Part shown: positions 6,957-30,734 of the stretch, one piece after another
How the letters are laid out: each line of letters starts with the position of its first letter
How positions within the stretch are numbered: position 1 is the first letter of the stretch
Source of the DNA: a virus
Virus record (IMG/VR): IMGVR_UViG_3300025698_000858
Coordinates: 1-37,969 of that record
DNA: 37,969 bases
Reading direction: 5' to 3' (one strand)
Made by a program: the position numbers and the translations under genes
Notes under the pieces: generated by a model
Database searches by the model: none
Seen by the model: the letters and a program-made list of their open reading frames with translations, nothing else
What the model was told of the DNA's origin: nothing

Positions 6957-6989
6957 CAACTGAAAGTCTAACTCAGCCGAACGAATACG

Positions 6990-7033: not shown

Positions 7034-7045
7034 GAGATAATTCTT

Positions 7046-11119: not shown

Positions 11120-11690
11120 ATATGAAAAACTCAAGCAGTTAATCGAGCAATGGACACGCGCTGAGATACTGGCGCGGTACGCCTCTTGGGGCATGCATAC
11201 TGAATGGGGTGACTATTTTCAACAAGCACTTGAATTGCAAGGCAAGATACGCAAGTTGGCGTTAGGTAGCGATAATATACTTGAGTTGGGATACAAGTGG
11301 CGTTTGATTCCGGAACCTGAAGACGTACATACAAAAGTTGTTAGTTTAGACGCAAAGCGAAAAAAGAGATCCGAACGAATGCGTGTCGTCCATTGTAAGA
11401 AGGAAGACTACGATGTATACATCGGACGTTCATCTAAATGGGGCAACCCATACCGAATAGGTAAGCATGGTACTCGCAAAGAAGTCATCAACAAATACCG
11501 CCGATGGATCTTGCGTCAGCCGAAACTTTTGAACTCATTAGATGAAATTCGTGGTAAGGTGTTAGGTTGTAAGACGGTTTCGGAGCGTGACACTGGTCAG
11601 GTGTTGATTGATTTGTGTATGCGAGATTCTACCAACATCGGAGATTTGAAACCCCAACGAAAGAAAAAACCTCATGCTAAAAGGCATTAA
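11112..11690 (+). CDS. DUF4326-like protein with N-terminal extension
   Basis: 192 residues. Residues about 90-170 match DUF4326: RVVHCKKEDYDVYIGRSSKW, GNPYRIG, GTRKEVINKYRRW and DEIRGKVLGC. The usual cysteine/histidine finish (GCWC..E.CHG) is replaced by GCKTVSERDTG, so a presumed functional site is missing. The first 70 residues are an extra helical segment not usual for the family. The domain's biochemical function is unknown. It overlaps both neighbours (8 and 17 bases), so it is in the recombination operon. Confidence 0.75.
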   Translation: MTRYEKLKQLIEQWTRAEILARYASWGMHTEWGDYFQQALELQGKIRKLALGSDNILELGYKWRLIPEPEDVHTKVVSLDAKRKKRSERMRVVHCKKEDYDVYIGRSSKWGNPYRIGKHGTRKEVINKYRRWILRQPKLLNSLDEIRGKVLGCKTVSERDTGQVLIDLCMRDSTNIGDLKPQRKKKPHAKRH

Positions 11691-13773: not shown

Positions 13774-14333
13774 AATCAATCGACGTAACAGTTCGCAACT
13801 GCTATGACGAATACACGCAAGGTGTAACTCAATACATCCGCGCAAAGAAACAACACAAACAAGCTCGTACCAATAGGATTGTCGCAAAAAAAGCCCAAAC
13901 CATTTTACAGCATGCCTCCGAACAAATCCAACGGGAAGCTCACAAACGAATCGCATCTACCGTTACAACTTGTATGCAATTCGTATTTGGTGATTCCTAT
14001 TCCTTCTGCATAAAGTTTGCGCGTATGAGGGGCCGAACCCAAGCTAATTTACAATTGCTCAAGGATGGAAATGTAATCACTGATCCGGCAAATGAGGATT
14101 CGGGTGGTGTATTAGATGTGGCTGCATTTGCATTGAGGCTCAGTTGTTTGGTAATGCACAAACCCGTTTTGCAGCGAGTGCTTATTTTGGATGAGCCTTT
14201 CCGATTTGTATCTGCTAAGTACCGCCCACGTATTAAAGGACTCCTCATCAGATTAAGCAAAGAGTTTGAAGTGCAAATCGTACAAGTGACACACCAACCA
14301 GAATACATGATAGGAAAGGTAGTAGAACTATGA
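13755..14333 (+). CDS. Rad50/SbcC C-terminal half (signature, Walker B)
   Basis: 192 residues. An N-terminal coiled-coil helix (to about 65) leads into the ATPase lobe: signature DSGGVLDVAAFALRLS (S116-G117-G118), Walker B and D-loop region RVLILDEPFRFVS (ILDEP at 144-148), and the H-loop VTHQPE with H180. There is no Walker A, which lies in the separate gene at 11674. In a complete Rad50 these parts are one chain joined through the hook. The stop overlaps the thyX start (ATGA). Strong complementarity of motifs makes the two-subunit reading convincing, though assembly is inferred. Confidence 0.88.
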   Translation: MEKISVKSIDVTVRNCYDEYTQGVTQYIRAKKQHKQARTNRIVAKKAQTILQHASEQIQREAHKRIASTVTTCMQFVFGDSYSFCIKFARMRGRTQANLQLLKDGNVITDPANEDSGGVLDVAAFALRLSCLVMHKPVLQRVLILDEPFRFVSAKYRPRIKGLLIRLSKEFEVQIVQVTHQPEYMIGKVVEL

Positions 14334-16508: not shown

Positions 16509-16563
16509 AAAAACGCCCATGGTACTTAGTTGGCACACGCTTTTGGAAAGGCGACCATGGGCG
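16509..16563 (-). terminator. Terminator at end of - strand operon
   Basis: On the - strand CGCCCATGGT (16563-16554) pairs perfectly with ACCATGGGCG (16523-16514), with a 30-base loop, followed at once by TTTTT (16513-16509). It lies just after the stop of the last - strand gene. The loop is long for an intrinsic terminator. On the + strand no T run follows, so it works mainly for the late operon. Confidence 0.65.
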
Positions 16564-16571
16564 CTTGCACT

Positions 16572-17207
16572 CTAGCCGTATGTATACAGCTTACACCTCT
16601 TAGGCATTTGCTTTTCGTTTCCGTCACTCCAAGACCATGCCTTATGCCGTTTGTAAATTTCCTTCATACTTCCATACCACATTCGATCCATATGGCACTG
16701 CCGAAATTTAGTCCCACTGTATAATCCGTTTGCGTAAACCGAAGGGACGTATTCAGAACTGAGATGGCTTCCATTTGCAAAACATATATCCGTCAACATG
16801 AGCCTGTTCATCAATCTCAGTATGACAAGATTAAATGTAAACCTATGATCACCATGTCCATACTCTCCCATCGGATTATGAGTAAAGACACACTCAGGTC
16901 TCCATGTCCGAATAAACTCGTCTATCTGAGTTTGAAATTGTTTCACTACTAATGGTAGTGTAAAATCCTTTCGATTTGGACTGCGAGGTGGTATCCTGGA
17001 GAAGTTTGTATCAAGCCGACGAAATGGAACTATTTCAATCTTGTTTTGTCTGCCCACTTCCTCTAATGCTTCTATAGCTCCCGGCCCGTACTTTTTGTAA
17101 TTGTTGGCGAGGATGATTACTGCTACTTCATGCGCACCCCCCTGCAAAATAGGCCATCCACAAATGACTTCATCATCTGGGTGTGCCATAACCATTAAGA
17201 TTCGCAT
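16572..17207 (-). CDS. PIG-L/LmbE family deacetylase
   Basis: 211 residues. VMAHPDDEVICG (H9, D11, D12) is the zinc-binding AHPDDE motif, and THNPMGEYGHGDHR carries the downstream histidine pair. The family removes N-acetyl groups from amino sugars such as GlcNAc-linked compounds. This is the last gene of the accessory cassette; neighbours encode sugar- and amino-group-handling enzymes, so an N-acetylated sugar substrate is a reasonable inference. Length fits a minimal PIG-L protein; there is no signal peptide, so it acts in the cytoplasm. Confidence 0.92.
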   Translation of the reverse strand: MRILMVMAHPDDEVICGWPILQGGAHEVAVIILANNYKKYGPGAIEALEEVGRQNKIEIVPFRRLDTNFSRIPPRSPNRKDFTLPLVVKQFQTQIDEFIRTWRPECVFTHNPMGEYGHGDHRFTFNLVILRLMNRLMLTDICFANGSHLSSEYVPSVYANGLYSGTKFRQCHMDRMWYGSMKEIYKRHKAWSWSDGNEKQMPKRCKLYTYG

Positions 17208-17222
17208 CAGTCAATACCTCCG

Positions 17223-17774
17223 TTAGTATGGGGCTTCCGATTCTAATCCGTCATTTGTTAGGTAATATTTAATTTGATCTGTAACGTCAGCCCAATTGTT
17301 ACGGAAGACGATAACATGAATACCAAGGGCTTCAATTTCCTTAGCAATTTCACGACGGAAAGTACCTATTGCATTTTCTTGGCCCGTCATGAAATCGTCT
17401 ACATAGACATAAGGTTTCATTGCAATTAAAACCGCGATCTTTGCAGCCATATTTGGAACGACAGTCACACTCTCTGGATTGGGGAGCTTTAAGTTTTTTA
17501 ATTGACAAATAGTCAGCGCTCCATCCAAGTCATATCCACGTGCTGTCAAATACCGTATTTCATTAATGGGGGACAAACCCCAGAGAACGTCGAGACATTC
17601 TATAGGATTCTCAGTAAGATTATCCATCTCCAGTTCAGGCCAAGTCCAAGCATTTTTGTGTATCTTACCTCCAGGCCAACGCGGAACTGTATTGCGTCTA
17701 ATCCGGCGCCAGTGGTCAACAAGCGTGCTGTCAATATCAAAGACAAACAGGTTAGATATTTTCTCAGACGCCAT
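17223..17774 (-). CDS. HAD-superfamily phosphatase
   Basis: 183 residues. Motif I is VFDIDSTLVD (D13, D15), motif II is in IRYLTARGYD, and YVYVDDFMTG supplies the acidic motif IV; a lysine lies in the MAAKIAV region. A small or absent cap suggests a small or polymeric phosphate-ester substrate; the T4 polynucleotide 3'-phosphatase domain has a similar arrangement, so a nucleic-acid substrate cannot be excluded. AAGGAG is five bases before the ATG. Overlap of 11 bases with the ATP-grasp gene implies coupling and a common pathway. Confidence 0.85.
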   Translation of the reverse strand: MASEKISNLFVFDIDSTLVDHWRRIRRNTVPRWPGGKIHKNAWTWPELEMDNLTENPIECLDVLWGLSPINEIRYLTARGYDLDGALTICQLKNLKLPNPESVTVVPNMAAKIAVLIAMKPYVYVDDFMTGQENAIGTFRREIAKEIEALGIHVIVFRNNWADVTDQIKYYLTNDGLESEAPY

Positions 17775-18831
17775 GCAGACTCCTTGCTAGGGCTGAGTAT
17801 GCCCTATCGAACATGGCGTGTTTATCTAACCAATAGTTAGCATAAAACGGAATTTCCTCTTGTAGTCGGAACTTCTCCCGTTTCAGAAATTCAACGAGCG
17901 CCGCAGGTCGGCTTGGATTGTAGAAAGGTGGATTCCAATTTGCCTGGTTGAAATACCCAACAGAGAATCCAGGTTGAACTTCAAGAAAATAAGGCTTGTC
18001 ATTCTGATCAAGAATTACATCAACCCCCTGAAAGTTCAATCCCAACACACTAACAGATTTGATTAGCGTCTTTTCCCACTGATGACAGAAATCAGAGCAC
18101 ACCTTTTGATACTTGATAAAAGTCTCCTCCATAGAGGATTCAAACCGATTGGTGATAGCAATCCAACCCTCTGGCGGTCCCACTCTCGCATACCCAGTTA
18201 CAACCCTGTCCGCAGCAACGATGATTCGGAAAGACATGATTACATTTTCAGGGCGCAATGTAGATATGAACTTTACAGCAAGAAGACTTTGCTTTGCCCC
18301 GCGCTTTTTTACATTGATACGTGTCTCACGCAAATAAGCCTTTAGTTCCACCAATGCTTTATTTGCCTCTTCCTCGTCATGCACGAGATATGAATGGTAG
18401 CCTGTGTTTGAATTGTTTGCGCGCACCAACATGGGGAAGTCGAAACTTTTCTTTTGCTTCTCCCAAAAATCTTCTGCATCTTTGAATTCAAACCAGTCGG
18501 GAACTGGAATGTCGTTGTCCCCCCAAATCTTGAACGCATCTTCCTTAGCATGTGACGCCATCCATCCCCGTGGATCGTTAATATGTTCAATGTGTGGAAA
18601 ATAGTTGGCTATATCCACACAACGTCTCCACAAACTTTCATCTGTGTATTCTGTATTAAGCTTCCAAACTATCGTATCTGCTTTTGAATGTAGAATTTCA
18701 TCCTCTGTGATGAAATTAGGCATGTCTTCCAACACTATAGGCCCTATGTAGGTTTCACACATTTCCCTTTCATATGCGCGCCACCGAACCCCATGACCTT
18801 TTACAGCAACTACCGAATGTGTCTCACCCAT
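17764..18831 (-). CDS. ATP-grasp ligase
   Basis: 355 residues. The first 100 are a divergent pre-ATP-grasp domain; then DNDIPVPDWFEF, FPMLVRANNSNTGYHS (ATP-binding strand and loop) and GLNFQGVDVILD...KPYFLEVQPGFS (metal-binding D and E, with the usual final N replaced by Q). The RimK-like group joins a carboxylate to an amine using ATP. With the adjacent PLP aminotransferase it could attach an amino acid or amino sugar to a carboxylated acceptor; this is inference. It overlaps both neighbours by 8-11 bases. Confidence 0.85.
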   Translation of the reverse strand: MGETHSVVAVKGHGVRWRAYEREMCETYIGPIVLEDMPNFITEDEILHSKADTIVWKLNTEYTDESLWRRCVDIANYFPHIEHINDPRGWMASHAKEDAFKIWGDNDIPVPDWFEFKDAEDFWEKQKKSFDFPMLVRANNSNTGYHSYLVHDEEEANKALVELKAYLRETRINVKKRGAKQSLLAVKFISTLRPENVIMSFRIIVAADRVVTGYARVGPPEGWIAITNRFESSMEETFIKYQKVCSDFCHQWEKTLIKSVSVLGLNFQGVDVILDQNDKPYFLEVQPGFSVGYFNQANWNPPFYNPSRPAALVEFLKREKFRLQEEIPFYANYWLDKHAMFDRAYSALARSLHGV

Positions 18832-19741
18832 TTTCGTTCAGCCTTTCCATTTCTAACAGTTCTCGAATAAACAAAATAACAGCTTCAAAACTTTGATCGT
18901 CACCTGCATATAGAAATATCTGATAGCCTTTCATTGATCGATACAGGCTGAAATGTTGAGCCAGTGTATTTGTAAAATCGTTTACTACCAACGTGAACAC
19001 CGGACCTTCTCCGATTATGTAATCAGCCGGAATCAAACTTACCAGCAAAGCGCGACGCTCATCCATCTTAATCCTGAATTTGATAACATCAAACTTATTT
19101 ACCACATCAAGCAAATCCCAATACAGCGGAATGGATGGTGTGGCAGGTGTCTCCAGTTTCTCTCTGAACCTAAGATACCGGCGCAGACTTAAAACACTAT
19201 CAGTCTCCGATTTGAAAAACTCATCTACTGGCAACCCCTTGCGTATACCTATAATGCTGATGACAGGATAAGCCCCCAATTGCTTACTGCTAACAGTAGT
19301 AAATACGTCAACATCCTCAGGGACAGAGTAATACGGAAACGCACTTACCATATCAGCAAAAAGTATCACCCTTGACCAATTAACATCCCAGTGTGTTGGT
19401 GTTGGAAGTGATATGTTGACGTGTGAACAACTTGTTTCATACAGACAAAAAGCTTTGCACAATGCAGGACCGTTTATTCTGTAAATCTTTTCGAGCCTAT
19501 CCAGCCTGCCACCAAATTCATCTTCCACGTATAAACACGTTGTACATACATTCAAACTGGAAAGAACGATCTCGTTAGCCATCGTACCGCTGCCAGTAAC
19601 GAAAATGAGATCGAAATCATCCAACCGGGGAAAAGTAGTTTTCATTTGTGCTTCTAACGATTGAAGCAATCCATGAAACACATCGTCCCTGTGATGATGT
19701 ACAGGTTTTGCAATCATCGATTTCGCATTCGGCCCGAACAT
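18824..19741 (-). CDS. PLP-dependent aminotransferase, class V-like
   Basis: 305 residues from the start chosen here. FVTGSGTMANEIVLSSL is the cofactor-phosphate loop, FADMVSAFP has the pyridine-nitrogen aspartate, and SSKQLGAYP has the likely Schiff-base lysine (K153). Fold type I, closest in feel to PhnW/serine-pyruvate aminotransferases, which start with a GP.. motif as here (MFGPNAKS). I use ATG 19741 because GGGAGGA lies 8 bases upstream; a longer frame to 19813 overlaps the previous gene by 100 bases and has a weaker site. The C-terminus is shorter than usual. The substrate is unknown. Confidence 0.85.
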   Translation of the reverse strand: MFGPNAKSMIAKPVHHHRDDVFHGLLQSLEAQMKTTFPRLDDFDLIFVTGSGTMANEIVLSSLNVCTTCLYVEDEFGGRLDRLEKIYRINGPALCKAFCLYETSCSHVNISLPTPTHWDVNWSRVILFADMVSAFPYYSVPEDVDVFTTVSSKQLGAYPVISIIGIRKGLPVDEFFKSETDSVLSLRRYLRFREKLETPATPSIPLYWDLLDVVNKFDVIKFRIKMDERRALLVSLIPADYIIGEGPVFTLVVNDFTNTLAQHFSLYRSMKGYQIFLYAGDDQSFEAVILFIRELLEMERLNENG

Positions 19742-20850
19742 GAGAGGGTCCTCCCGTAAACGAATTTCTTCTCCAGATATTTGAGTACAGCAATACGATG
19801 CATCCCATCCCATGGGTCTTCCCTGCCCAACTGTAACGCAATGGGAGTTTCCTGCCCATGTTCCTTCGCAGTCTTGATTAAATTGATATAGGACAGAACA
19901 CGCTCTCTTGCTATTTTAGGACCCCAAGCTGTAGATCCACGATGCGCATCTCGTTGCCATCTAAAACATACTGAACGCTCTAAATTTGATTCGTCTGTAC
20001 GATTGGATAGCACGTCCTCTATGAACGTAGGAAAAATACGCTGATAAAATATAGCATTATATGGATTCAAAGCAAGTTGTTTCGTCCAACAATCCTGGAT
20101 GGAAAGTCGTTTCAGTGAACGACTACGAAACAACAAAATAGTTAAGTCTTTCACCCTGTTTGCTTTTTTATGTTCCAACAACTTCCCAGATGTAGAAAAA
20201 TGATGTATGTAATCCCAATCAGACAAAGGCGTGATTAAACTCTGTAAATATGAAGACTTTGGATTTATTACACCCCCTGCATTTTCATCCAACAGCACAA
20301 CCAAATACATACTCTTGAAAGACAACGTTCGCAAATACGCAACTAACGCATTTACTCGCATATGATAGTGTACACAAGACAGCATCGTGATATCCACAAT
20401 GGGAAACGTGCTCATATTAAGTGACTGTGCATCCGGATGAGATATGTTAGGTTCCAACGGACCAATGCCTTGGTTGTACACCTCCAAGGGCATCTCGTCA
20501 TAGTAATCACGAGTTACAAGCAATTGATCGAAAGCCCCCAATCCAGCGTCCACACCAATCAATCGATTAAACCCTTGCTTTTGCCAAGCTCGCAAAAGGA
20601 ACAAACCCGCACTACAACCCACCTCGCACAAAGAACTTTCTTTGGGTTTTGTACCCAGCTTATCTATATGTTCCAACATTGGTTTTATGTAACACATCCA
20701 TCGTCCTTCTCCGTACGATATGTAATTTGTTCGACCACCCCCAAAATGGGTGTTGGGAGATGAGATGCTACCGTACGGGACGGACTGATACCAACGTCGC
20801 TTTTCCCCAGCTTGTTCGATACGTGTTCGCAATTTAGCCTTACTTATCAT
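19714..20850 (-). CDS. SAM methyltransferase with C-terminal ParB-like motif
   Basis: 378 residues. LCEVGCSAGLFLLRAW followed by LIGVDAG is a class I SAM-binding motif (G-x-G type, then the acidic strand 2 end). IVDITMLSCVHYH is the region after motif IV. The C-terminal 90 residues do not belong to a methyltransferase: they include RWQRDAHRGSTAWGPK and EDPWDGMHRIAVLKYLEK, where DGMHR-AVL resembles the D-G-x-H-R of ParB/Srx-type proteins. So it is a two-domain protein, possibly methyl transfer plus a nucleotide- or acceptor-binding module. ATG 20850 has AAGGA six bases upstream. Confidence 0.75.
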   Translation of the reverse strand: MISKAKLRTRIEQAGEKRRWYQSVPYGSISSPNTHFGGGRTNYISYGEGRWMCYIKPMLEHIDKLGTKPKESSLCEVGCSAGLFLLRAWQKQGFNRLIGVDAGLGAFDQLLVTRDYYDEMPLEVYNQGIGPLEPNISHPDAQSLNMSTFPIVDITMLSCVHYHMRVNALVAYLRTLSFKSMYLVVLLDENAGGVINPKSSYLQSLITPLSDWDYIHHFSTSGKLLEHKKANRVKDLTILLFRSRSLKRLSIQDCWTKQLALNPYNAIFYQRIFPTFIEDVLSNRTDESNLERSVCFRWQRDAHRGSTAWGPKIARERVLSYINLIKTAKEHGQETPIALQLGREDPWDGMHRIAVLKYLEKKFVYGRTLSCSGRMRNR

Positions 20851-20852
20851 AA

Positions 20853-21545
20853 TCAATCCTTACACTTCTTGGTAATGACGGCTATAGGACAAGACTTCAT
20901 GTCAAAGCTTGTAAGTCGTACACCAGTGACAGTATCCAATCCCTTTAGAAATACATCTATGTCCTCATATCGAATCATTTGGGGGTGCTCTATGTTCCCT
21001 TGCGTTTTGTGTCTTTCAATTTCATCCTCATTGTCTCCACGACAATCAAACGCCAAAAAACAAGACTTGCTCACACGCAAACATTCGGATATAGCATCAA
21101 AAATATTCCAGCCATGATCCAAACTATTGAAGCTAAGAAGAACATCTATTGAATCATCTGATAACGGAATCTTTTCCGCTCCTGACTCTACATACGTCGC
21201 ATCTTCAGGCCATTCACAATAGTTCAAATCAACTAAATCTCGCATGACATAATCTATAAACACTTTCTTTCTTGCGGGAATATCACAAACCTGAAGCATA
21301 CCCCCAAACGGTCCAGGACCCACTTCACCTACAATCTTTGTTTCATCTACATAGGATCGAATATTATAACAGCTTAGAAATGGATCGTACCAAGCCTTCC
21401 TGGCATTCGCCTCATGTTCTTTATTTCCTTTCCACCATGAAATGTTTCTTGCTCTAAATGTTTCCTTGGACTCTAAACCACCTCTGGTTTTTTCAGCATC
21501 ATTTATACTTGTAATCCAATGCAAATTTCGACTATCGGTATGCAT
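20853..21545 (-). CDS. Class I SAM-dependent methyltransferase
   Basis: 230 residues of the Methyltransf_11 type. Motif I is IVGEVGPGPFGG, motif II-like acid in VFIDYVMRDL, and EKIPLSDDSIDVLLSFNSLD is the hallmark post-motif block followed by HGW. FLAFDCRG comes next. These enzymes methylate small molecules or sugars. The start directly abuts the previous stop (TGAATG) with AGAGGG upstream. Along with the neighbouring methyltransferase it could decorate a glycan; the substrate is not known. Confidence 0.85.
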   Translation of the reverse strand: MHTDSRNLHWITSINDAEKTRGGLESKETFRARNISWWKGNKEHEANARKAWYDPFLSCYNIRSYVDETKIVGEVGPGPFGGMLQVCDIPARKKVFIDYVMRDLVDLNYCEWPEDATYVESGAEKIPLSDDSIDVLLSFNSLDHGWNIFDAISECLRVSKSCFLAFDCRGDNEDEIERHKTQGNIEHPQMIRYEDIDVFLKGLDTVTGVRLTSFDMKSCPIAVITKKCKD

Positions 21546-22304
21546 TCAAATACCCTCTTTTGAAAAAACATCCCGGACTCCACGTTGGCCCCAATGCAAC
21601 ATCATGCATTCAATAGAAATATCTTTACCCTGCAACCGTTTCTTGTAATCTCTCATATACTTAGCACTGCTCGCACCCACACACCATTGTTCAGGAAGAT
21701 AAACGGGAGTAATACCAGTCTTCCATGAAGCTCTCCAAAAGGCAAGTGTGCCTCGCATACAGTTTTGTAGCTCTTCCAAATAGGCAGATAAAAGAATACG
21801 GGCTCTTTCGTCCAACCTATACACAAACAAGGGGCTGACGTTACACGCAGGGGCATGAGGAGGGCCACAGTGTGCGTTGTAAGGGATAAAATCCTTTGGC
21901 CCGGCGTCTGTCCCCCTAGCATTGTATTTAACATACACACGGGGGTTCAGAGGTACACAAACACCGAAGCGCTCAGCCAGTAGAAATCCGTCGGTGAATT
22001 CAGAATGTACAATGCGCATATCGTCATTGAGAACACAATAAGAATCAGCATAGGGCTCTAATGCAAATCGTGCGGATAACACATTACAATTGCGCACACC
22101 CCAACGTGGACTATCTAACCATTGAAGTTCATTGTGGGGAACTACCAGTTGTGTAATCTCATCCGATAGGTTCCTCTGATGATCAGTCACAATGTATACA
22201 GGAATATCCGGGCAAACTTGTTTGAGATTTGATAATAGTGCCTGGACATTTTTTGCACGTCCCGGTCCCAAACTGACAATTAGAATAGCTCGTTTCACAT
22301 CCAC
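21546..22304 (-). CDS. Glycosyltransferase-like protein
   Basis: 252 residues. It begins ILIVSLGPGRAKNVQALLSN, then a PDIPVYIVTDHQ strand and an ADSYCVLNDDMRIV segment with a DD pair in the position of the GT-A metal motif. PLNPRVYV and a C-terminal HWGQRG are further conserved-looking parts. The fold is probably GT-A, but I cannot name a family with confidence. GTG 22304 has AAAGGGG eight bases upstream and overlaps the next gene by ten bases. It would transfer a sugar from a nucleotide donor. Confidence 0.65.
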   Translation of the reverse strand: MDVKRAILIVSLGPGRAKNVQALLSNLKQVCPDIPVYIVTDHQRNLSDEITQLVVPHNELQWLDSPRWGVRNCNVLSARFALEPYADSYCVLNDDMRIVHSEFTDGFLLAERFGVCVPLNPRVYVKYNARGTDAGPKDFIPYNAHCGPPHAPACNVSPLFVYRLDERARILLSAYLEELQNCMRGTLAFWRASWKTGITPVYLPEQWCVGASSAKYMRDYKKRLQGKDISIECMMLHWGQRGVRDVFSKEGI

Positions 22305-23101
22305 GTTGTCGCCCCTTTATCATGCCGAATCATCACATTCGGAAATACATCCTCTTCATAAATCATCGTCTTCAACTTAGACTTCAAATGAATAACTGCC
22401 GCCGTATCCACATCTCCAATAACATCACGTACAAATTCAAAAGCTTGCGCCCCTATTCTATCTGTAGGAGGACAATAGTTGTACCGTGGACCTGCGTCAA
22501 CAATCGACAACCCATGTGACTTTTTCAAAGCTTCTCTTTCCATCCAAGTTGAAATCAAAAAATCCTGGCCAACGCTCCAGTCCAATCCGAAGTGATGATG
22601 TTTGTATTTCGTTCTGGCCTCTATATATGGCTCCCATGTATTTTCAAATATCTCATCCACATGCCAAGCAATCCACCCCCTAACACGTGGGTTCACCCGT
22701 AGGAAAAAGATACCACCATTGATTGGAAATAAATGCTCATATCCCCGTGTTGTCACCCCTATGTCCATATTCCTGTTATCGTTGAATGGCTTGAAAGGAT
22801 CTGCTTGGAAATACACGTCTACGTCAGACACAAGAACTTTGTCATGGTCCGCAAAATACTTCTGGAAACAATGGAGTAACATTTCGATCTTACACGTTGC
22901 ACGTCGGCCACTCATTTGTTTTGGATCAACCACCTGCCACCAAACATTGTAATTGTCAGATAGAAACGATTTCACAATGTCTGGAACTCCATCAGTAACA
23001 ATAATAATCTGGACGTCAGGTGCAACCGCGTGTAAACTGTGAATGCACGTCTCCAGCATATTATTGTCTTTTTGATGGTAGGTAAAATAAGCAAACTTCA
23101 T
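22295..23101 (-). CDS. Glycosyltransferase (nucleotide-diphospho-sugar transferase)
   Basis: 268 residues with a GT-A layout: MKFAYFTYHQ, then VQIIIVTDG, and the metal-binding DxD in VLVSDVDVYFQADPF. PINGGIFFLRVNPRVRGW is the typical continuation with N-G-G for acceptor/donor binding, and GQDFLIST holds a conserved D. It resembles PF03407-type transferases. It overlaps the gene at 21546. The presence of three such genes in a row suggests a multi-sugar chain or several acceptors. Confidence 0.8.
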   Translation of the reverse strand: MKFAYFTYHQKDNNMLETCIHSLHAVAPDVQIIIVTDGVPDIVKSFLSDNYNVWWQVVDPKQMSGRRATCKIEMLLHCFQKYFADHDKVLVSDVDVYFQADPFKPFNDNRNMDIGVTTRGYEHLFPINGGIFFLRVNPRVRGWIAWHVDEIFENTWEPYIEARTKYKHHHFGLDWSVGQDFLISTWMEREALKKSHGLSIVDAGPRYNYCPPTDRIGAQAFEFVRDVIGDVDTAAVIHLKSKLKTMIYEEDVFPNVMIRHDKGATTWM

Positions 23102-23124
23102 TATCCTCTCCCTGCCTTGGTTCC

Positions 23125-23709
23125 TTAGGCATTTACAACACGACGAAATCGACGCGACGCTTGATTGTGTATAATAACCCCATCCGGAACGTTTCGCATT
23201 AGATCAAATATTTTACAATACTGAGCTGGAAGACAACCGAATTTGAGATTGTACTTTCCAGAATTTAATAGTTCCTGTAGTAAATCTGGATTGCGTTTTC
23301 TTTTTCTACTCCCCATGCATAACTCTGCCCACTCGGCAACAAACGTTTGTACAACAGGATTATTGCGAAAAAAGATAGTCCCCCCCAAAAGCTCGTTACG
23401 GTGCCATGAAAAATCATGAACATGTGCTGCAATATCCGCTACGAACTTCGGATTTTCAAAGATAACTGGGCGAGCTTCAAAAACCGCATCGGCATCAACA
23501 CGTAAAATATCCCTTCCAGGAAAACGAGACAAGGCGCTTTGAATAACCTTGCTGCAAAAGTTGCTGTTCGCGCGCCATGTACCAAGAGATTTGATGGGGG
23601 TAAGATCCAACTCTAATTTCCATTCCTTGCACGATTTGACAAGATTCTTAACTTCCTCTTCATACGGCGTGTCTACTGTATAGTGTGACACAACCAAGGG
23701 CATTACCAT
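23125..23709 (-). CDS. Putative glycosyltransferase
   Basis: 194 residues; DILRVDADAVFEARP contains a DxD motif and ELLGGTIFFRNNPVVQTFV matches the GG-I-F-R-NP segment seen in the neighbouring gene at 22295, so these are distant relatives. It lacks the larger N-terminal part. I use ATG 23709 with GGAGA about 9-10 bases upstream; a TTG at 23718 is less likely. C-terminal residues are basic (RRFRRVV). Probably a sugar transferase in the same pathway. Confidence 0.7.
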   Translation of the reverse strand: MVMPLVVSHYTVDTPYEEEVKNLVKSCKEWKLELDLTPIKSLGTWRANSNFCSKVIQSALSRFPGRDILRVDADAVFEARPVIFENPKFVADIAAHVHDFSWHRNELLGGTIFFRNNPVVQTFVAEWAELCMGSRKRKRNPDLLQELLNSGKYNLKFGCLPAQYCKIFDLMRNVPDGVIIHNQASRRFRRVVNA

Positions 23710-23710
23710 C

Positions 23711-24325
23711 CTAGTCAATCTCCTTTCTGTATTCGATATAAGCGTTGAGCTTACTCGTAGGAGAATGACTTATTACTTCCAATCCTTTCTCTTTCATAAT
23801 TTTCAATGCTGTTACAAAATGCCCAAAGTATTCTGTGAGATGTGTTACACCACTACGATATTGAGAATGAAAGTTACTTCCACCGTCATGATGCAAGTCC
23901 ATTCCCAATAGATGAATCCTTTTCGCCCCCAATATTATAGCTAACTGCATTCCGCAAAATCCGCTATTCTGTCCAGTGCAAAATTCCGTATCCCCCTCAA
24001 TGTAAATCTGACCATCAAAACGAGTGGGTTTGATATGCCACTCATACTGTTCCAAATAAGGTTCGACCCTGTGAAAGAATTTATGATCTTCCCGCATCAC
24101 AAGAACCTTATAACCTACACATTCCCAAAAGTTATTAATTGCCGCTCGCCGAGCATACGTGCTATCGGCCGTTATGAAATATGAAAGATTTGGAACGTAT
24201 TTAATCGCCCCATTAACCGCAATCGTCGTTTTGTAACGTATTTGATCCCAGTCAAAATCTTTCAGCGAAGGCCCACAGCCAACAACATACACATCATCAG
24301 GAATAGAAAGGTGTTGATTATTCAT
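23711..24325 (-). CDS. DUF115/MptE-like or GT42-like protein
   Basis: 204 residues. VYVVGCGPSLKDFDWDQ at the N-terminus, the NG in IAVNGAIKYVPN and the ITADS motif, then NSGFCGMQLAIILGAKRIHLLGMDLH, are shared by DUF115 (MptE-like) proteins and GT42 sialyltransferases, which bind nucleotide donors with a G-x-GPS loop. Which of the two it is cannot be decided by eye. It is the first gene of the cassette, 13 bases after the giant tail gene, with AGGA seven bases before the ATG. Confidence 0.65.
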   Translation of the reverse strand: MNNQHLSIPDDVYVVGCGPSLKDFDWDQIRYKTTIAVNGAIKYVPNLSYFITADSTYARRAAINNFWECVGYKVLVMREDHKFFHRVEPYLEQYEWHIKPTRFDGQIYIEGDTEFCTGQNSGFCGMQLAIILGAKRIHLLGMDLHHDGGSNFHSQYRSGVTHLTEYFGHFVTALKIMKEKGLEVISHSPTSKLNAYIEYRKEID

Positions 24326-24338
24326 ATCAATATCCTAA

Positions 24339-27300
24339 TTAATACCACGAATATGTACCAAACGAACTTACAATATTCCAAGTCCCTGCAATAAGACATC
24401 TAATCTCAACCACCGATTCATCAGCACCCAATTCCAAATCTGTAACCCTGCCTGCAAATACATCGGCACCCGCAGCAGCTACTCGCAAAGCCTCTGAAGG
24501 CACTCGAATAAATCTAAGTGCCGTCCCCGCTGCTGCTGAAGGCAATGTAAACGTAATAGTTCTAGATGCCCCAACATTCGTAAATGTCTTTCCGTTATCC
24601 GCTGTCAATACTGTATAGTCCGCAGTCTTGGCTGTCGGTGTATCTGTGAGTGGCTGTGGAATAGCAGAACCTAAAATCGTTCCACCGGTAATCGTAACAC
24701 CATCACTATCCTGAGTTGCTATTGTGCCAAGACCAAGTGTTCCCCTGGCCGCCGCTGCATCAGCATCATCTAGCAAGGTCTTGGCAAACGCCGTCACCGT
24801 CTCACCGAACAACGTGCCAAACGCGGTGAACGTCGCCTTAGTAGACTCTGCGCCAAAGTCGCCGCTGGACGTGCACACCCATCCAAGAATGCCCGTAGTA
24901 GGTGCTGTATGTAGTACTACCTCACCCGCACGATAGTAGTAGCTATCGGGGACTGCATTAGCAAAAAACACGCCCCTGGCTGTCGAATCAGTCAAAGCTC
25001 GAATCCGCACACCCTTGGGCAAACTAGAAGTAGTGTAGACTTCTAGGGGCCCAACAATCATTCCTGCACCATCATCGATACCGAAATACATCAGTCTATC
25101 GTCAGCACCCGTTCCGGTAAAACCACCCGCCTCAAACTCCGTGTTGAACGATGAGATGGAAACGCAGTGAGTCCCCAGATCCACATCCTGCTGAAATTTG
25201 CAGCCGATCAAAATCAACGGCTTGTACATATCGTAGCTAATAACATCCGCTGCTGGTGCAGGTGAGTTATCTTGCTGAAAACCGCTCATGATGTTTGGGG
25301 CTAACGAAGCACTGGCCGCTTGAGCCCCCGCCGACGTGGTCAACACAACATCCGATTCTGACTTGCAGGCGTAGAGGTGGAACCCAGCGATGGGGCCATT
25401 GAGATAGATGTCACTCGTCCCGCTGTTTGCCCAGAAGTGGCCGAACGCCGTGATCTGCCCGGCGTCGATTTGGGTGCCGTAGGTCGTCGCGTCGAGGTTG
25501 GCGCCGTTCCTGAATGTCACTTGCCGGGGCCCACCTCGGAGCTTTGTGTTGATCCCGTTATAGCTGATCGTGCAGTTCTCGAACTCGACATAATCGCAGG
25601 CCGCGTTGCTGTGCTGCTGGTAAACGTCCACGCCCACGCCGGGGCAGTACTGGACGATGACGTTGTTGAATGTATTGCGCTGGCTCGGGAGGCCGCTGGC
25701 GGTGGTGATGAGAAGCCCATTGACGCCAGAGGTGCTGTTGCCATGCAACCATAGATCCTCGATGGTGCTCTCAGAGATAGACGTCATCTCGATCATCGTG
25801 CCGGATGCCGCCCCGATCCACTTGATTTGCGGCTGGCCCTCGCCATAGATGTGCAGGCCGATCTCCGTGGCACTGCCGTCACCGATAGACAGCTTTGTGC
25901 CAATCCCGTAGTAACTGGACGGTTGCGGGAAGAAAATGGCCCGACCGGACGCAATCCCTGCGTTGATGCACGCCTGGATACTGCTGCTGTCATCCGAGCC
26001 GTCGCCTTTGGCTCCGAAGTCGGACACAGACAACGGTTGCTGTGACACATGGTCGGGCATGATATCAACGGAGAACTCGTCAATTTCGACCGTTCCGGTC
26101 GATTCGTCATAGTTAACCAGAATGGTAGGCCGGAACCACCGCACGTCATCGTGTAGGATGCCCGGCGCCCCGGGGTCAGGCTTGGCCCCCGCGTCACCGG
26201 TCGATCCGGTGCCTCGGAAATAGCCGGTGTAGACGGTCCAACCTGAACCCACAGACTCCGCGCTGGCCGCGATGTAGTGCTGTGAACCGATCTGGTCAAG
26301 GCCATGCACATTCACCCACGCATCGTCGGCGCCGTTGCGGCCGCTGACGCCAAGGTATGCCGTCCCAACGCCGGCCGTTTGACGGGTGCGCACGCGGATG
26401 CGGTACAACCACCCCGGATCGAATGGGAAGGAATCTTTGTAAATCAACCACGCTTGACCGTTGCTGACGCGCAGGAACTTGCCACCACTGACGCCACCGC
26501 TCTGGATGGAAAGCTCACCGCTACCGCTCTGGTTGACCCACCGTGTCGCGACGTCGTTGTCTGGATTTTGAAAGTAGTCATGGAACGTTTTGGCGCCCTT
26601 GACGCCTTCGACGCAATTGTCTAACTGGATATCGCCTTCGTGGTCGCCAGTTACGTCAGCACCGTCCTCGGGCTTGTGCCCGTCGTCATCGACGATAAGC
26701 GACCAAGACCCATCGACCGTTGCAATTTGTATCCAAGCAGCGCCACTATATCGCTTGAGCATATTGGGCGAAACACTCGTGTCACACCATACCCAGCCTT
26801 CCTGAGGTGAACCAGGAGCCGCGACGCCAACGTGCGTAATATCTACCGCATTGTTCGCAGTTACGTCGGCGCCCGACTCAGCGGCAAATTTATTGGTGCC
26901 GCCCTCGGGGATTTGGTCGGCGTCCTCGGGGATGACGTCGATAGCGAACTCGTCAATCTCCCACGACTCACCGGAGCTCTGACTGATGTACAAGAAGGGC
27001 CGGAAATACCGCACGTCTTCGTGCAGCGCACCAGGATTGGCCGGGTCAGGGCATTCCACGTTCGTCCCATTGCCAATTGCGTGCCCCTTGAAATACCCCG
27101 TGAAGATTTCCCACGCGCCGTCGCCCGACTCAGCGACCGCTACCACGTAATGCTGGCCCCACATCCTTGCCGTCGCCGCCCCGGTATAGTCCACCCAAGC
27201 CGTATCGGCTGAATTGCGACCGGCGACCCCTGCATAAAGCGAACAGATGCCCGCCGTTCGCTTCGCCCGAATCCGAACTCGATAGAGTTTTGACGGATCA

Positions 27301-30300
27301 AACGGAATGCTCTGCTTGTGCCAGATCGCCCCGACATTCTCACTACACTGCAAAACCTTCCCGCCAGCAACCCCGCTGGCCGACGCCACCGCGTACGTCA
27401 TCGAATGGCTGGAATACAGTTCCCAGTGAGACGTCACTTGACCGAACGCATCCTCAAAAGTCTCGTCGAAGAGATTCGCGCCGGAGCCACTAATCGGCAT
27501 ATCGTCGGCGTCGATGTACGATCCATTCTTAGCAACAAGAACACCCTCTTTAAAGAACGCCACGCCGCCCTCATTGATGCAGAACAAATAACGAGCTTCA
27601 CCGGACAAATCAGAAAGCTCATTTGTTGTTTGAAGATATCTTGGATCGCCTATGTTAGGATCAAAATAAATGTACTTATCTGTCGTCTCCCCAAACTGTG
27701 AATCCGCTATGGGAACCCAAGTGCCTTGGTATTTGATCCCCCCGCCCAAATCGACTGTCCATGTCACGGTATCAACATCATCACCAGTAAAATTCAAACC
27801 ATACCACTTGATGGACTCCTCTATATGACTCACCCCCGGCTTTTGTCCAGCTACAGCTTGCTGAGTTGTAGGAAGTAGGGAGGGTGATGTCCCCCCTTTC
27901 GTTGTAGAATAAACTTGGGGCTCTATCCGAGGAGCGTTTTCATCATCAGTATAGTAATCCGTTGTATACTGCATTCCTTGAAGGATGACTTTACCAGAAC
28001 GCTGACGCCGGAAACCAGTTACCCTATAAGTATCAACAACATCAGTGGCAGTTCCAAACGTCCACAAATCCATTTCATTCGGTGTGTAATCCCACGCGCC
28101 GACAATCGTTACTATATCATTCTTATCACCCGTTACTGAAGCAACAGTATAATAACTAAGCCTTTCAGCAGAACCATCATGTGTACGAATCAACAACGTA
28201 TAGGTTTCACCACTCTCAACATCCAATTCCTTATCCGTTTTGATACCATTGGCATATACTGTATCAATTCGACCGCCTTCACCAGTAGCAATCGCCGGGT
28301 GCTGGACATATATAACATCCCCTAACGATGTGTAAATCGAATCAATGGCAGCAGGCAACTCCACCATCTTTTTCATGTACTGATTTATACGAAGTTGCCT
28401 TGTAGCTCTACGCCAAACTTGCGAACGTTTTGTAGCTCCCCAACAATCTAAATTCGCTGGAATATCCGCTGCTGCCCCTCTTAATGGAATGGGGTAACTC
28501 TCTCTGGCATAGTCCCCAGTCTCATCATAAAATTCAGCATCATAGATTGTAGCTACTTCATTCGTTGGCAGATAGGTAACGCGGAAACCAGGACGCAAAT
28601 TTGAAACATTGAACATCTGGGATGGAGTAGCAGGTTTGTCTACTACCACACCAAGAATATTTCCCGTCAACGTCGGCATAGCACATCCAGCTCTACATAC
28701 CCGTTGGACGGCGTCCCACGTTACCATTTCAGAATCGATCACACCGTTAAACACATATCGATTCTCAGTATCACCACTCTCATCTGTTATTGGAACCTGC
28801 TCATCACACCATGTCGCAAAAGTGATAAATTCAGACATCGTAATGTCACTGGGGTCCATCCGACGATAATACTCTACCGCATAAGCATCACCACTCTCAC
28901 CTGTACCAGAAATAACAGGACGTGTGGCTACATCTACTGCAATCCATGCTGGATTATCTGACCATTCGATACTTGTAACATTCCCACCAGAATCATAAAT
29001 ACAAACGAGCTTCCCTTCTATCTGTGCATAGTAATCAATACTACCCGATAACTCCTGCCCCGCCCCAGCCCCAATCGCTGTGTAAGCAAGTCCTGGATGT
29101 TTTTGAGCTGTATCGAATACACATTGAATGGAATCGAAGTAAAAATTATCACCCCTATCTGAATGTTGGCTGCTATTACGCGAAACCCGCGCTTCATATT
29201 CTATTCCTGGGGTGATAGTAAAAGCACTGCCTCCCTCGTATGTCTCATGACAAAAATATCTAAGACGAACCGGATCACGGCTCTTACCTATAATTTGTGA
29301 ATCAAACAACGTATGCCAAGAACCTCCAGCAATACGCATTTCAATTTTCGTGTCGATCCGGGTAGTATTTGCATCTCCCTCTGCATCGAAATTTGTCAAA
29401 CCATTTGGGAAACGTAAAACGATAGCAACCTTATCGCAATCAACTGCTGTAAAAGTCTTAGTGATTTCATGATCATCCTGATTTTGGTCTTTACACATTT
29501 GATTTACTGGAATCTCGAAAGCATCTGTTACCGTAGAAGCCGCCTGAGATTCTGTTCCTGTGAAATGCTCCAACACCCAATCATCTGCATCATTATAAGA
29601 TTCAATGGACCTGTTATTAAGTTCTTCCGTGCCATCCACGATACCTTCAATTGGACCGTCTGAATACGCAATCTTTAGATGGATAAGGTCTTCCGCAGAA
29701 GTGACTGATGCATCCTTTGTGAGAAAGTCTGTCCCTTCCGTTAATTTGCTTGAGGCGTAGCTACATATCAAAACACCTCGAACGCCATACGTCCCATACA
29801 CCAAAGGAACAGGTGTACCTACTCGTTGCGTTGTCTTGGGATTCCAGGTATATGATTGTGATTCTGTTTCTTTACCCTCATCCGCACCCACCAACGCATT
29901 CAGGGCTAATGCCCCACCCATCATAATTGCAGCAGTGCCTAATGAATAGGCCATCATAGTACCAGCACTATATGCAGCTTCCCCAGCCATCATTGCACTC
30001 GCAGCGCCAGTCAAACCAGGAGCGACAGCCCCCATTATAGCCGGAGCAGCTACAGCAAGGGCTAACATACCCATCAGTTGTACAGGCTTGGCCCCTCTCG
30101 CCAGCTCGGGGCGGATAACTATCTGTTGGGCGTACGTAGGGTAGGTCCCCGCCCAATCGGCCCTTAGAATGGGTTCAGCATCCAAAAAAACGTGGAGTGG
30201 TATATCCTGTCCACGAGTTATATCCTGTTCAATTATTTCCGCAAGCGAACGTCCTGCCCGGACAAACTGTGTAGCTCGTTTAGAAGTCGTCATGGGTGTG

Positions 30301-30734
30301 AGCATAATGACTACTTCAATCCAATCTTTCGCCCACCAATAACCATCAACTTTATCCCGCCAAGGCCGACGACTCAAAGGTTCCGCGAGAACCTTTCCAT
30401 GAGCCCTGCCTGGACAATGGATAAATAGATTATCATTCGGGAGGACCAAACCGATATGAGTATCCAAAAGAGTCTTAGATGAAAACGTAACAAGGGAAAA
30501 TGGACGTGGGAACAAACACTGTTCGTAATTCTGCTGCTGTTGATCATAAACAGGACGCGCATCCTTGGGATCAACCAAACCGATATCAGGTAGATCCATA
30601 CCCAACCGTTCCGCAAAGACTTTTACCAATCCATAACAATCATAGCTATCGGGTCCTGTAGCCTTTGCTTCATACGGCTTGCCAAGAAACTCAGCCATTA
30701 TCTCATTCAACTCTTGTTGAGTGAATCGTACCAT
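24339..30734 (-). CDS. Giant tail-tip/spike fusion: NlpC/P60 + I-like + J-like + spike
   Basis: 2131 residues combining jobs usually done by several phage genes. Residues 1-150: NlpC/P60 peptidase with C33 in SYDCYGLV and H93 in THIGLVL (lambda K role, cell-wall digestion). About 150-220: ubiquitin-like I/J N-terminal segment (GRSLAEIIEQDITRG). About 222-285: hydrophobic stretch. About 300-1000: J-like central tail tip beginning RVGTPVPLVYG. About 1089-1270 and 1382-1562: two homologous jelly-roll-like domains. About 1570-1800: pectate-lyase-type beta-helix (VSDFGAKGDGSDDSSSIQ). The C-terminal end has a tail-fibre linker LDDADAAAARGTLGLG. Stop of the L-like gene overlaps its ATG (TAATG). It is expected to bind the host glycan, possibly cut it, and digest peptidoglycan. 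Confidence 0.9.
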   Translation of the reverse strand: MVRFTQQELNEIMAEFLGKPYEAKATGPDSYDCYGLVKVFAERLGMDLPDIGLVDPKDARPVYDQQQQNYEQCLFPRPFSLVTFSSKTLLDTHIGLVLPNDNLFIHCPGRAHGKVLAEPLSRRPWRDKVDGYWWAKDWIEVVIMLTPMTTSKRATQFVRAGRSLAEIIEQDITRGQDIPLHVFLDAEPILRADWAGTYPTYAQQIVIRPELARGAKPVQLMGMLALAVAAPAIMGAVAPGLTGAASAMMAGEAAYSAGTMMAYSLGTAAIMMGGALALNALVGADEGKETESQSYTWNPKTTQRVGTPVPLVYGTYGVRGVLICSYASSKLTEGTDFLTKDASVTSAEDLIHLKIAYSDGPIEGIVDGTEELNNRSIESYNDADDWVLEHFTGTESQAASTVTDAFEIPVNQMCKDQNQDDHEITKTFTAVDCDKVAIVLRFPNGLTNFDAEGDANTTRIDTKIEMRIAGGSWHTLFDSQIIGKSRDPVRLRYFCHETYEGGSAFTITPGIEYEARVSRNSSQHSDRGDNFYFDSIQCVFDTAQKHPGLAYTAIGAGAGQELSGSIDYYAQIEGKLVCIYDSGGNVTSIEWSDNPAWIAVDVATRPVISGTGESGDAYAVEYYRRMDPSDITMSEFITFATWCDEQVPITDESGDTENRYVFNGVIDSEMVTWDAVQRVCRAGCAMPTLTGNILGVVVDKPATPSQMFNVSNLRPGFRVTYLPTNEVATIYDAEFYDETGDYARESYPIPLRGAAADIPANLDCWGATKRSQVWRRATRQLRINQYMKKMVELPAAIDSIYTSLGDVIYVQHPAIATGEGGRIDTVYANGIKTDKELDVESGETYTLLIRTHDGSAERLSYYTVASVTGDKNDIVTIVGAWDYTPNEMDLWTFGTATDVVDTYRVTGFRRQRSGKVILQGMQYTTDYYTDDENAPRIEPQVYSTTKGGTSPSLLPTTQQAVAGQKPGVSHIEESIKWYGLNFTGDDVDTVTWTVDLGGGIKYQGTWVPIADSQFGETTDKYIYFDPNIGDPRYLQTTNELSDLSGEARYLFCINEGGVAFFKEGVLVAKNGSYIDADDMPISGSGANLFDETFEDAFGQVTSHWELYSSHSMTYAVASASGVAGGKVLQCSENVGAIWHKQSIPFDPSKLYRVRIRAKRTAGICSLYAGVAGRNSADTAWVDYTGAATARMWGQHYVVAVAESGDGAWEIFTGYFKGHAIGNGTNVECPDPANPGALHEDVRYFRPFLYISQSSGESWEIDEFAIDVIPEDADQIPEGGTNKFAAESGADVTANNAVDITHVGVAAPGSPQEGWVWCDTSVSPNMLKRYSGAAWIQIATVDGSWSLIVDDDGHKPEDGADVTGDHEGDIQLDNCVEGVKGAKTFHDYFQNPDNDVATRWVNQSGSGELSIQSGGVSGGKFLRVSNGQAWLIYKDSFPFDPGWLYRIRVRTRQTAGVGTAYLGVSGRNGADDAWVNVHGLDQIGSQHYIAASAESVGSGWTVYTGYFRGTGSTGDAGAKPDPGAPGILHDDVRWFRPTILVNYDESTGTVEIDEFSVDIMPDHVSQQPLSVSDFGAKGDGSDDSSSIQACINAGIASGRAIFFPQPSSYYGIGTKLSIGDGSATEIGLHIYGEGQPQIKWIGAASGTMIEMTSISESTIEDLWLHGNSTSGVNGLLITTASGLPSQRNTFNNVIVQYCPGVGVDVYQQHSNAACDYVEFENCTISYNGINTKLRGGPRQVTFRNGANLDATTYGTQIDAGQITAFGHFWANSGTSDIYLNGPIAGFHLYACKSESDVVLTTSAGAQAASASLAPNIMSGFQQDNSPAPAADVISYDMYKPLILIGCKFQQDVDLGTHCVSISSFNTEFEAGGFTGTGADDRLMYFGIDDGAGMIVGPLEVYTTSSLPKGVRIRALTDSTARGVFFANAVPDSYYYRAGEVVLHTAPTTGILGWVCTSSGDFGAESTKATFTAFGTLFGETVTAFAKTLLDDADAAAARGTLGLGTIATQDSDGVTITGGTILGSAIPQPLTDTPTAKTADYTVLTADNGKTFTNVGASRTITFTLPSAAAGTALRFIRVPSEALRVAAAGADVFAGRVTDLELGADESVVEIRCLIAGTWNIVSSFGTYSWY
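26050..26590 (-). repeat. Second copy of jelly-roll-like domain in tail spike
   Basis: Residues about 1382-1562 of the giant protein. Shared landmarks with the first copy are FDP-LYR-R-R--TAG, GRN-AD-AWV, QHY-A-AES, GYF-G, PDP..PG.LH.DVR.FRP and EIDEF..D..P. Overall resemblance is to carbohydrate-binding modules, but the fold is inferred. Confidence 0.85.
26925..27470 (-). repeat. First copy of jelly-roll-like domain in tail spike
   Basis: Residues about 1089-1270, homologous to the copy at 26050-26590 (both about 181 residues). The copies are diverged, so the duplication is not recent. Between them lies a short GADVT-containing linker that occurs before each copy. Confidence 0.85.

Follow-up and report, generated by a model that had tools for sequence, protein, structure and literature searches.

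The ten genes behind the tail fibre gene in the window, i.e. the whole analysed stretch of 37,969 nucleotides (IMG/VR virus record IMGVR_UViG_3300025698_000858), comprise several glycosyltransferases and sugar-tailoring enzymes tied to a tail gene, as is typical of phage clusters for surface-polysaccharide modification. Their core consists of an aminotransferase, an ATP-grasp ligase and a putative HAD phosphatase that were found in phage loci either all together or not at all. We suggest that this is a surface-glycan cassette whose amide-ligation core may work like the capsule trio of Campylobacter jejuni, a reading to which we give about an even chance. As a rule, sugar clusters of phages are described as loose assortments of glycosyltransferases. 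The present one has a strictly co-inherited core, which gives a concrete chemical prediction, glycan amidation, for phages missing from culture collections.

Layout of the cassette

Ten open reading frames of the minus strand run co-directionally from 24325 to 16572 in the order g1 to g10, with mostly short overlaps, and end at a hairpin. This confirms the original prediction of a ten-gene series behind a tail gene that is closed by a terminator.

24339..30734, minus strand: central tail fibre / tip attachment protein J homologue, 2131 aa (phrog_31, 1.8e-98; FNIII-A_GpJ, 1e-10)
23711..24325, minus strand: g1, DUF115 / GT42-like (sialyltransferase-type) putative CMP-sugar glycosyltransferase (phrog_4603, 1.2e-18)
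23125..23718, minus strand: g2, Nucleotid_trans (GT77-like) glycosyltransferase (PF03407, 0.004, below cut-off)
22295..23101, minus strand: g3, Nucleotid_trans glycosyltransferase with DVDVYF motif (PF03407, 2.4e-4, just below cut-off)
21546..22304, minus strand: g4, glycosyltransferase-like protein with NDDM motif, of a family without Pfam match (context)
20853..21545, minus strand: g5, SAM methyltransferase (Methyltransf_11, PF08241, 1.4e-5, above cut-off)
19714..20856, minus strand: g6, methyltransferase-like N-terminus and C-terminal DPWDGxHR region (PF13489, 0.013)
18824..19741, minus strand: g7, class V PLP aminotransferase, 305 aa, start MFGPN (family profile against PDB, 1.7e-14)
17764..18831, minus strand: g8, ATP-grasp amide ligase with RimK/ArgX/Ddl-type fold (RimK, PF08443, 6e-8, above cut-off)
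17223..17774, minus strand: g9, putative phosphatase of the HAD superfamily (DIDST; motifs)
16572..17207, minus strand: g10, PIG-L/LmbE-type de-N-acetylase (PF02585, 2.1e-11, above cut-off)
16510..16566, minus strand: terminator-like hairpin followed by GTTTTT at the cassette end (fold -23.5 kcal/mol, z -2.9)

The tail reading frame is separated from g1 by 13 bases. Gaps of 23 and 15 bases lie between g2 and g3 and between g9 and g10, g4 and g5 abut, and the overlaps amount to 8 (g1/g2), 10 (g3/g4), 4 (g5/g6), 8 (g7/g8) and 11 bases (g8/g9). For g6/g7 the overlap is 28 bases when g7 is taken to start with MFGPN at 19741, the start common to its relatives; g6 itself probably starts from the ATG at 20850. 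The terminator has a GC-rich stem of about 13 pairs and a long loop followed by GUUUUUCC, and 0 shuffles folded equally well.

The upstream gene had been called a tail spike but is instead a central tail fibre of the lambda J type, as both phrog_31 and FNIII-A_GpJ indicate. It includes a carbohydrate-binding-like part (CBM_4_9, 0.004) and a weak pectate-lyase-like part, both sub-threshold. This J homologue is the upstream neighbour in the operon of the cassette and stands outside the pathway.

Conservation in related phages

A search for the same gene combination in other phages, as proposed with the original prediction, recovered the full set (10/10 genes, same order, 66–86% identity) in locus L003 and 9/10 genes (same order, 41–55% identity, g5 missing) in L004. 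Between the window and L003 dN/dS is 0.06–0.19 for all ten genes, i.e. the whole cassette is under purifying selection. This low ratio together with the order kept in both relatives means that the gene set is not a chance assembly.

The phages of the window and of L003 are related, with about 70–94% protein identity in most genes. Their tail fibre J, on the other hand, was replaced (26% identity) while the cassette remained near 80%, so the cassette product is not tuned to J. Transfer of the cassette as a unit into the phage of L003 was considered and rejected, since the comparison of whole records shows that J and its neighbour were replaced. The retention of the cassette beside a swapped tail fibre poses the question of whether cassettes of this kind track the surface of the host and not the receptor-binding protein.

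No match for g6, g7, g8 or g10 was found among 50,697 GenBank phages, and none for g8 among the plasmids searched. Scans of genome contigs with the ATP-grasp and g4 alignments gave no cellular relatives, a weak negative because only two short peptide patterns were used per scan. Within the sources searched the triad was seen only in environmental phages. That it represents a phage-only trio absent from cells (a RimK-type ATP-grasp family and a class V aminotransferase subfamily, both new, plus the HAD protein), spread among unrelated uncultivated phages for late amidation of host or virion surfaces, is in our opinion rather doubtful. A role as anti-phage defence system was rejected, the PADLOC models giving nothing beyond a weak mad8 match (0.0015) for g9.

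Glycosyltransferases, methyltransferases and de-N-acetylase

Profiles and motifs uphold the families assigned originally, namely a GT42/DUF115-like protein, two methyltransferases, an aminotransferase, an ATP-grasp protein, a HAD protein and a PIG-L protein. Of three further glycosyltransferase-like proteins, g2 and g3 bear out the assignment by their sub-threshold Nucleotid_trans matches, but g4 is glycosyltransferase-like only by context and a weak match (Mannosyl_trans3) of a relative.

The phrog family of g1 is annotated as ‘alpha-2,3-sialyltransferase’. Weaker matches concern MptE/DUF115 (2e-5, below the Pfam cut-off), the WaaZ Kdo transferase (1.4e-4) and, for the profile over part of the protein, the Cst-II structures (6.5e-4); distant relatives occur in jumbo phages of Brevundimonas, Caulobacter and Xanthomonas. 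Pfam searches showed neither a NeuB synthase nor a CMP-sugar synthetase in the window cassette; in L021 they detect both. The DxD motif of g2 (VDADAVF) is kept in its relatives and g3 is likewise conserved. Most strong PIG-L loci give matches to the g4 profile, which makes g4 a recurrent partner of PIG-L; its alignment profile found no match in PDB.

In g6 the segments EVGCSAG and DPWDGxHR are invariant in three relatives, and a further relative is present in L044. Its C-terminal region resembles ParB/Srx by the DPWDGxHR motif only, the alignment profile had no PDB match, and an AlphaFold model built from three sequences (pLDDT 47) was left unused. The HPDDE motif and the histidines of EYGHG.HR are conserved in g10, which shows a weak MshB-like match, while the PIG-L alignment profile did not match any PDB entry.

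The co-inherited core

Among 37 phage loci ten contain the ATP-grasp, aminotransferase and HAD genes together and none contains only a part of them. This linkage holds down to about 30% identity, and the triad is always co-directional among glycosyltransferase genes. The HAD gene adjoins the ATP-grasp or aminotransferase gene in triad carriers or is two short methyltransferase genes away (L047).

Catalytic residues are conserved in all three enzymes. In g7, which has no Pfam match, the lysine of the S[SN]K motif and Asp130 are invariant in 7 relatives, and its profile relatives in class V include phosphoserine and 2-aminoethylphosphonate aminotransferases. The substrates of these two enzymes bear a phosphate or phosphonate group. 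The AlphaFold model of g8 (pLDDT 87.8, pTM 0.88) confidently predicts an amide ligase of the RimK/ArgX/Ddl type, with ArgX (3vpc, 6e-14) as top Foldseek match besides RimK (5zct); a TupA-type match was sought in Pfam up to E = 1 without result. Across 7 relatives the HAD motifs DxDST, [TS]AR, K and DD of g9 show little or no variation. A relative matches NT5C (0.004), and the HAD alignment profile found nothing in PDB.

Proposed pathway

The original prediction of a single pathway for an aminated, methylated and ligated sugar is a fair reading. Synteny, the all-or-none core and the glycosyltransferase and nucleotide-sugar genes neighbouring it in relatives support a co-inherited glycan pathway, which we refine to an amide-ligation core. 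In this scheme g7 would turn a phosphorylated carbonyl compound into an amino-phosphate by transamination, g8 would use ATP to link its amine to a sugar carboxylate, e.g. of a uronic acid, and g9 would take off the phosphate after amide ligation. In the same glycan g10 might de-N-acetylate a HexNAc and g5 and g6 might methylate, whereas g1–g4 would assemble and transfer the sugars with host nucleotide sugars as donors, a CMP-sugar being the probable donor for g1. Genes of the UDPG_MGDP_dh, epimerase and GDP-mannose-dehydratase types adjoin the core in L042 and L052; no uronate-forming enzyme is encoded in the window contig itself, which is incomplete.

By analogy with the Campylobacter capsule pathway the triad probably joins an amine to a sugar. 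However, g8 is RimK-like, without the TupA-type match expected from Cj1438C, and the proximity of PIG-L and ATP-grasp genes would also suit aminoacylation of a freed sugar amine. In such a scheme, reminiscent of mycothiol and bacillithiol, PIG-L would free the amine of a hexosamine and the ATP-grasp enzyme would acylate it with an amino acid, the product being soluble or an aminoacylated glycan. The PIG-L gene directly 3' of the HAD gene in seven carriers, the MshB-like match of g10 and the use of amino acids by the RimK/ArgX/Ddl relatives of g8 speak for this. Nevertheless, we regard it as unlikely: L069–L071 keep ATP-grasp, aminotransferase and HAD without adjacent PIG-L, many PIG-L sets occur without ATP-grasp, and no clear role is left for the aminotransferase and the HAD protein.

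Acceptor of the product

For the amide-ligated glycan we slightly favour the host envelope over the virion as acceptor. Presumably made late alongside the tail genes, it could mask receptors on the dying cell and its debris or exclude rival phages. The position of the cassette is equally compatible with glycosylation of virion proteins of the tail or capsid, be it for antigenic properties, stability or adhesion; we consider this a real possibility although somewhat improbable. In three phages (window, L003 and L004) the cassette follows J as the last part of the tail operon, L013/L015 have a related g3-g4-PIG-L set flanked by terminase and portal genes, and a second DUF115-like gene occurs in the head operon of the phages of L003 and L004. 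Against virion proteins, in three core carriers (L042, L047 and L052) the set lies close to replication genes of the UvsX or RNR type and not to virion genes, and the swap of J beside a kept cassette means that J is not an obligate acceptor.

Lysogenic conversion, with a temperate phage altering the O-antigen of its lysogens, would fit the surface-glycan type of gene content, and the position after J recalls the morons of lambdoid phages. It appears very unlikely, as the tyrosine integrase PF00589 was detected in 0/12 records (incomplete contigs; control 14/14). Least probable is that the enzymes attach an aminated, methylated sugar to a modified base in the phage's own DNA, even though some phages glycosylate hydroxymethylated bases and genes for a family A DNA polymerase and a DNA methylase are present in the window. 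No ThyA-type gene (hydroxymethylase family) was found in the core carrier contigs, which are incomplete (control positive in 9 genomes), and the late-operon position, as well as genes for UDP-sugars and CMP-sugars that related cassettes contain, also disfavour this reading. TET/JBP dioxygenases were found in 0/12 records, but their control was also silent.

If true, glycan amidation by phages would explain how phages produce sugars unlike those of the host, would bear on superinfection exclusion, receptor release and virion surface chemistry, and would offer a source of new amide ligases for glycan synthesis.

Comparison with known systems

The claim that no phage pathway with this set has been described holds for the exact set, which is absent from the GenBank phages mentioned above and from the open-access literature searched. 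It does not hold for the general kind, since sugar and LPS clusters next to phage tail genes are already known (PMC7824862, PMC7029224).

In cyanophages P-SSM2 and S-SSM6a a 15-gene sugar cluster and a 10-gene sugar/amino-acid cluster, respectively, likewise combine glycosyltransferases with methyltransferases and HAD phosphatases and were read as decorating surface polysaccharides. They hold epimerases, sugar kinases, a halogenase and carbamoyltransferases, whereas neither the trio nor PIG-L is described for them (PMC7824862). The host-recognition hypervariable cluster of pelagimyophages also has glycosyltransferases beside tail fibre genes, together with a UDP-glucose 6-dehydrogenase, and is proposed to alter the host O-chain and prevent coinfection; it is much larger and more variable, and an aminotransferase/ATP-grasp core is unreported (PMC7029224). 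Different glycosyltransferase cassettes occupy the same place at the tail operon end in L019 and L021 (IMG/VR). These nonulosonic-acid cassettes contain a relative of g2, which in L021 is fused to a DUF115-like gene, but carry NeuB and a CMP-sugar cytidylyltransferase instead of the triad.

The closest functional parallel to the core is the HS:2 capsule trio Cj1437 / Cj1438C / Cj1435 of C. jejuni, which shares its three enzyme types and decorates a polysaccharide (PMC11800397, PMC11800379). There aminotransferase, ATP-grasp amidoligase and HAD phosphatase perform the corresponding steps on glucuronate (PMC11800397), the amidoligase Cj1438C having an ATP-grasp fold (PMC11800379), and the two phage cores of L042 and L052 adjoin genes of the UDP-glucose dehydrogenase type. 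In contrast with the capsule trio, the phage ATP-grasp protein resembles RimK and not TupA in both Pfam and Foldseek, so the likeness is one of working principle only. The phage protein also lacks fusion to a glycosyltransferase, and the phage set adds PIG-L and methyltransferases and is made up of different, phage-specific families.

Organization of the cassette and its surroundings

The record (37,969 bases, IMG/VR) lacks end repeats and is probably a fragment of a phage genome. It has two arms, one of replication genes (plus strand) and one of virion genes (minus strand), and its relevant features are as follows.

24339–30734, minus strand: homologue of the central tail fibre J (phrog_31 1.8e-98; Pfam FNIII-A_GpJ), with an internal duplication of carbohydrate-binding-like segments (residues about 1085–1290 and 1380–1580, 40% identical)
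24325–16572, minus strand: the cassette of ten genes, namely g1 (DUF115/GT42-like), g2 and g3 (Nucleotid_trans), g4 (glycosyltransferase-like), g5 and g6 (methyltransferases), g7 (aminotransferase), g8 (ATP-grasp), g9 (HAD) and g10 (PIG-L)
14330–15985: ThyX thymidylate synthase interrupted by an intein that includes an HNH endonuclease region (the 273-aa ThyX of the related phage record 3300033145_001721 is without intein)
688–1437: N6/N4 DNA methylase gene, missing from 3300033145_001721

The cassette lies directly behind the last tail gene, the majority of its genes overlap or abut, and on its 3' side a stable hairpin is followed by a T run, so the predicted co-directional series ending at a terminator is borne out. 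The upstream neighbour had been taken for a tail spike and has to be renamed as the J homologue.

Conservation, timing and acceptor

Besides an essentially identical second record of the same phage (L002), two IMG/VR loci contain the cassette whole or nearly so. In L003 it is complete and in unchanged order (66–86% identity); L004 has nine of the ten genes, g5 being absent (41–55%), at a G+C content of 66% versus 42% in the window. Between window and L003, dN/dS values of 0.06–0.19 show purifying selection on each of the ten genes, with synonymous sites near-saturated in some of them. The phage of L003 is related to the window throughout (remaining genes mostly about 70–94% alike) the exceptions being J (26%) and the gene beside it (28%), together 24339–31345; judged from these alignments, the cassette stayed while the receptor-binding end was exchanged. 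With the phage of L004 mostly virion genes match, and the cassette genes are closer than most of these.

From the place in the virion operon we infer late expression. The exchange of J beside an unchanged cassette argues against J as the tuned acceptor; the host envelope, or a virion protein other than J, would fit. For related phage clusters in print a change of the host O-chain and exclusion of rivals are favoured (PMC7029224, PMC7824862), and we slightly prefer the host envelope over the virion. That the cassette is a lysogenic conversion set is disfavoured, as a tyrosine integrase occurs in none of 12 records. A search for defence systems with PADLOC was negative. A second DUF115/MptE-like gene, possibly encoding a capsid-linked transferase, is found in the head clusters of 3300033145_001721 (locus L073, 5458–6111) and 3300033148_009015 (28007–28684), the two being 41% identical.

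Family assignment of the cassette proteins

The PIG-L, RimK ATP-grasp and Methyltransf_11 genes pass the Pfam cut-offs. Both Nucleotid_trans genes and the DUF115/MptE gene remain below them, their assignments being backed by conserved motifs and a sialyltransferase PHROG (1e-18). For g7, without Pfam match, a seven-member profile settles the prediction as class V aminotransferase: it retrieves such enzymes from the PDB (1.7e-14, best 3f0h), followed by serine-pyruvate, phosphoserine and 2-aminoethylphosphonate enzymes, and the family has an invariant PLP lysine and aspartate, both identified by their position in the class V motifs. Conserved motifs mark g9 as a putative HAD protein. The profile of g4 matches no PDB structure, and context together with a weak match of a relative suggests the label glycosyltransferase-like. 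In g6 a SAM-binding motif is accompanied by a DPWDGxHR motif in the C-terminal region, reminiscent of ParB/sulfiredoxin-type domains; its structure model is of poor quality. The AlphaFold model of g8 (13 diverse sequences; pLDDT 87.8, pTM 0.88) groups in Foldseek with ArgX/LysX, RimK and D-Ala-D-Ala ligases (E about 1e-13, 12–15% identity, TM 0.55–0.69), every one a carboxylate-amine ligase; viral structures lie farther away.

A linked enzyme trio

PIG-L and ATP-grasp profile scans of IMG/VR yielded 37 loci, including some short ones. Ten of these have ATP-grasp, class V aminotransferase and HAD together, and none has a partial trio; the count was seeded by PIG-L or ATP-grasp, and stand-alone aminotransferase or HAD genes elsewhere would escape it. 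In all ten carriers the trio is co-directional and contiguous or nearly so.

Table. Order of the trio genes in the ten carriers (L numbers, IMG/VR phage loci; AT, aminotransferase)
AT–ATP-grasp–HAD: window, L003, L004
ATP-grasp–ATP-grasp–AT–HAD: L042
ATP-grasp–AT–ATP-grasp–HAD: L048
ATP-grasp–AT–ATP-grasp–two methyltransferase-like genes–HAD: L047
ATP-grasp–AT–one gene–HAD: L052
ATP-grasp–AT–HAD: L069, L070, L071

Glycosyltransferases are neighbours of the trio. UDP-glucose-dehydrogenase-type, epimerase and GDP-mannose-dehydratase-type genes stand behind it in L042 and L052, as does an epimerase-type gene in L047, and a CMP-sugar synthetase-like domain is near it in L069. The latter locus, a marine-type phage sugar island, encodes a fusion of a CMP-sugar cytidylyltransferase domain with an HMGL-like aldolase domain (5739–7433). 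PIG-L immediately follows HAD in seven carriers. Since the other three have the trio without adjacent PIG-L and many PIG-L sets are without trio, PIG-L is best read as a de-N-acetylation step that would act apart from it.

The original prediction had also raised DNA modification as an alternative. A role of the cassette in DNA hypermodification is now disfavoured, as no core carrier (on incomplete contigs) has a ThyA-type gene; a TET search was silent, and so was its control.

Comparison with known systems

Phage sugar clusters beside tail genes are already a known kind. The post-tail cassettes of two further phage loci, L019 (9540–17320, read from sequence) and L021 (9392–18642, by Pfam), contain NeuB, CMP-sugar cytidylyltransferase, a SPASM radical SAM protein and a DUF115-like gene, and are likely nonulosonic acid glycosylation cassettes. 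In L015 a cassette with g4 and PIG-L sits between terminase and portal, with a B12-binding radical SAM-like protein (10975–12255) between the two genes. The claim that no phage pathway with the present set has been described holds for what was searched: searches found neither gene set nor linked trio in 50,697 GenBank phages (queries g6, g7, g8, g10 and the ATP-grasp and aminotransferase of L047) or in open-access papers, and g8 has no match in plasmids. Two scans with peptide patterns, of low sensitivity, gave no match in 84,980 species genomes.

The closest comparison is with Campylobacter jejuni HS:2, in which Cj1437 converts dihydroxyacetone phosphate to serinol phosphate by transamination. 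The TupA-like ATP-grasp domain at the C-terminus of Cj1438 then couples this product, using ATP, to glucuronate at its C6 carboxylate, and Cj1435, a HAD enzyme, strips the phosphate (PMC11800397, PMC11800379). Because the phage ATP-grasp is not TupA-like by Pfam, we do not assign the cassette to this pathway. Nevertheless, the three enzyme types are the same, the phage aminotransferase has relatives whose substrates carry a phosphate or phosphonate, and in two phages the trio has uronate-forming genes next to it; we therefore propose, by analogy, that the phage trio would most likely perform glycan amidation, as does its counterpart in C. jejuni.
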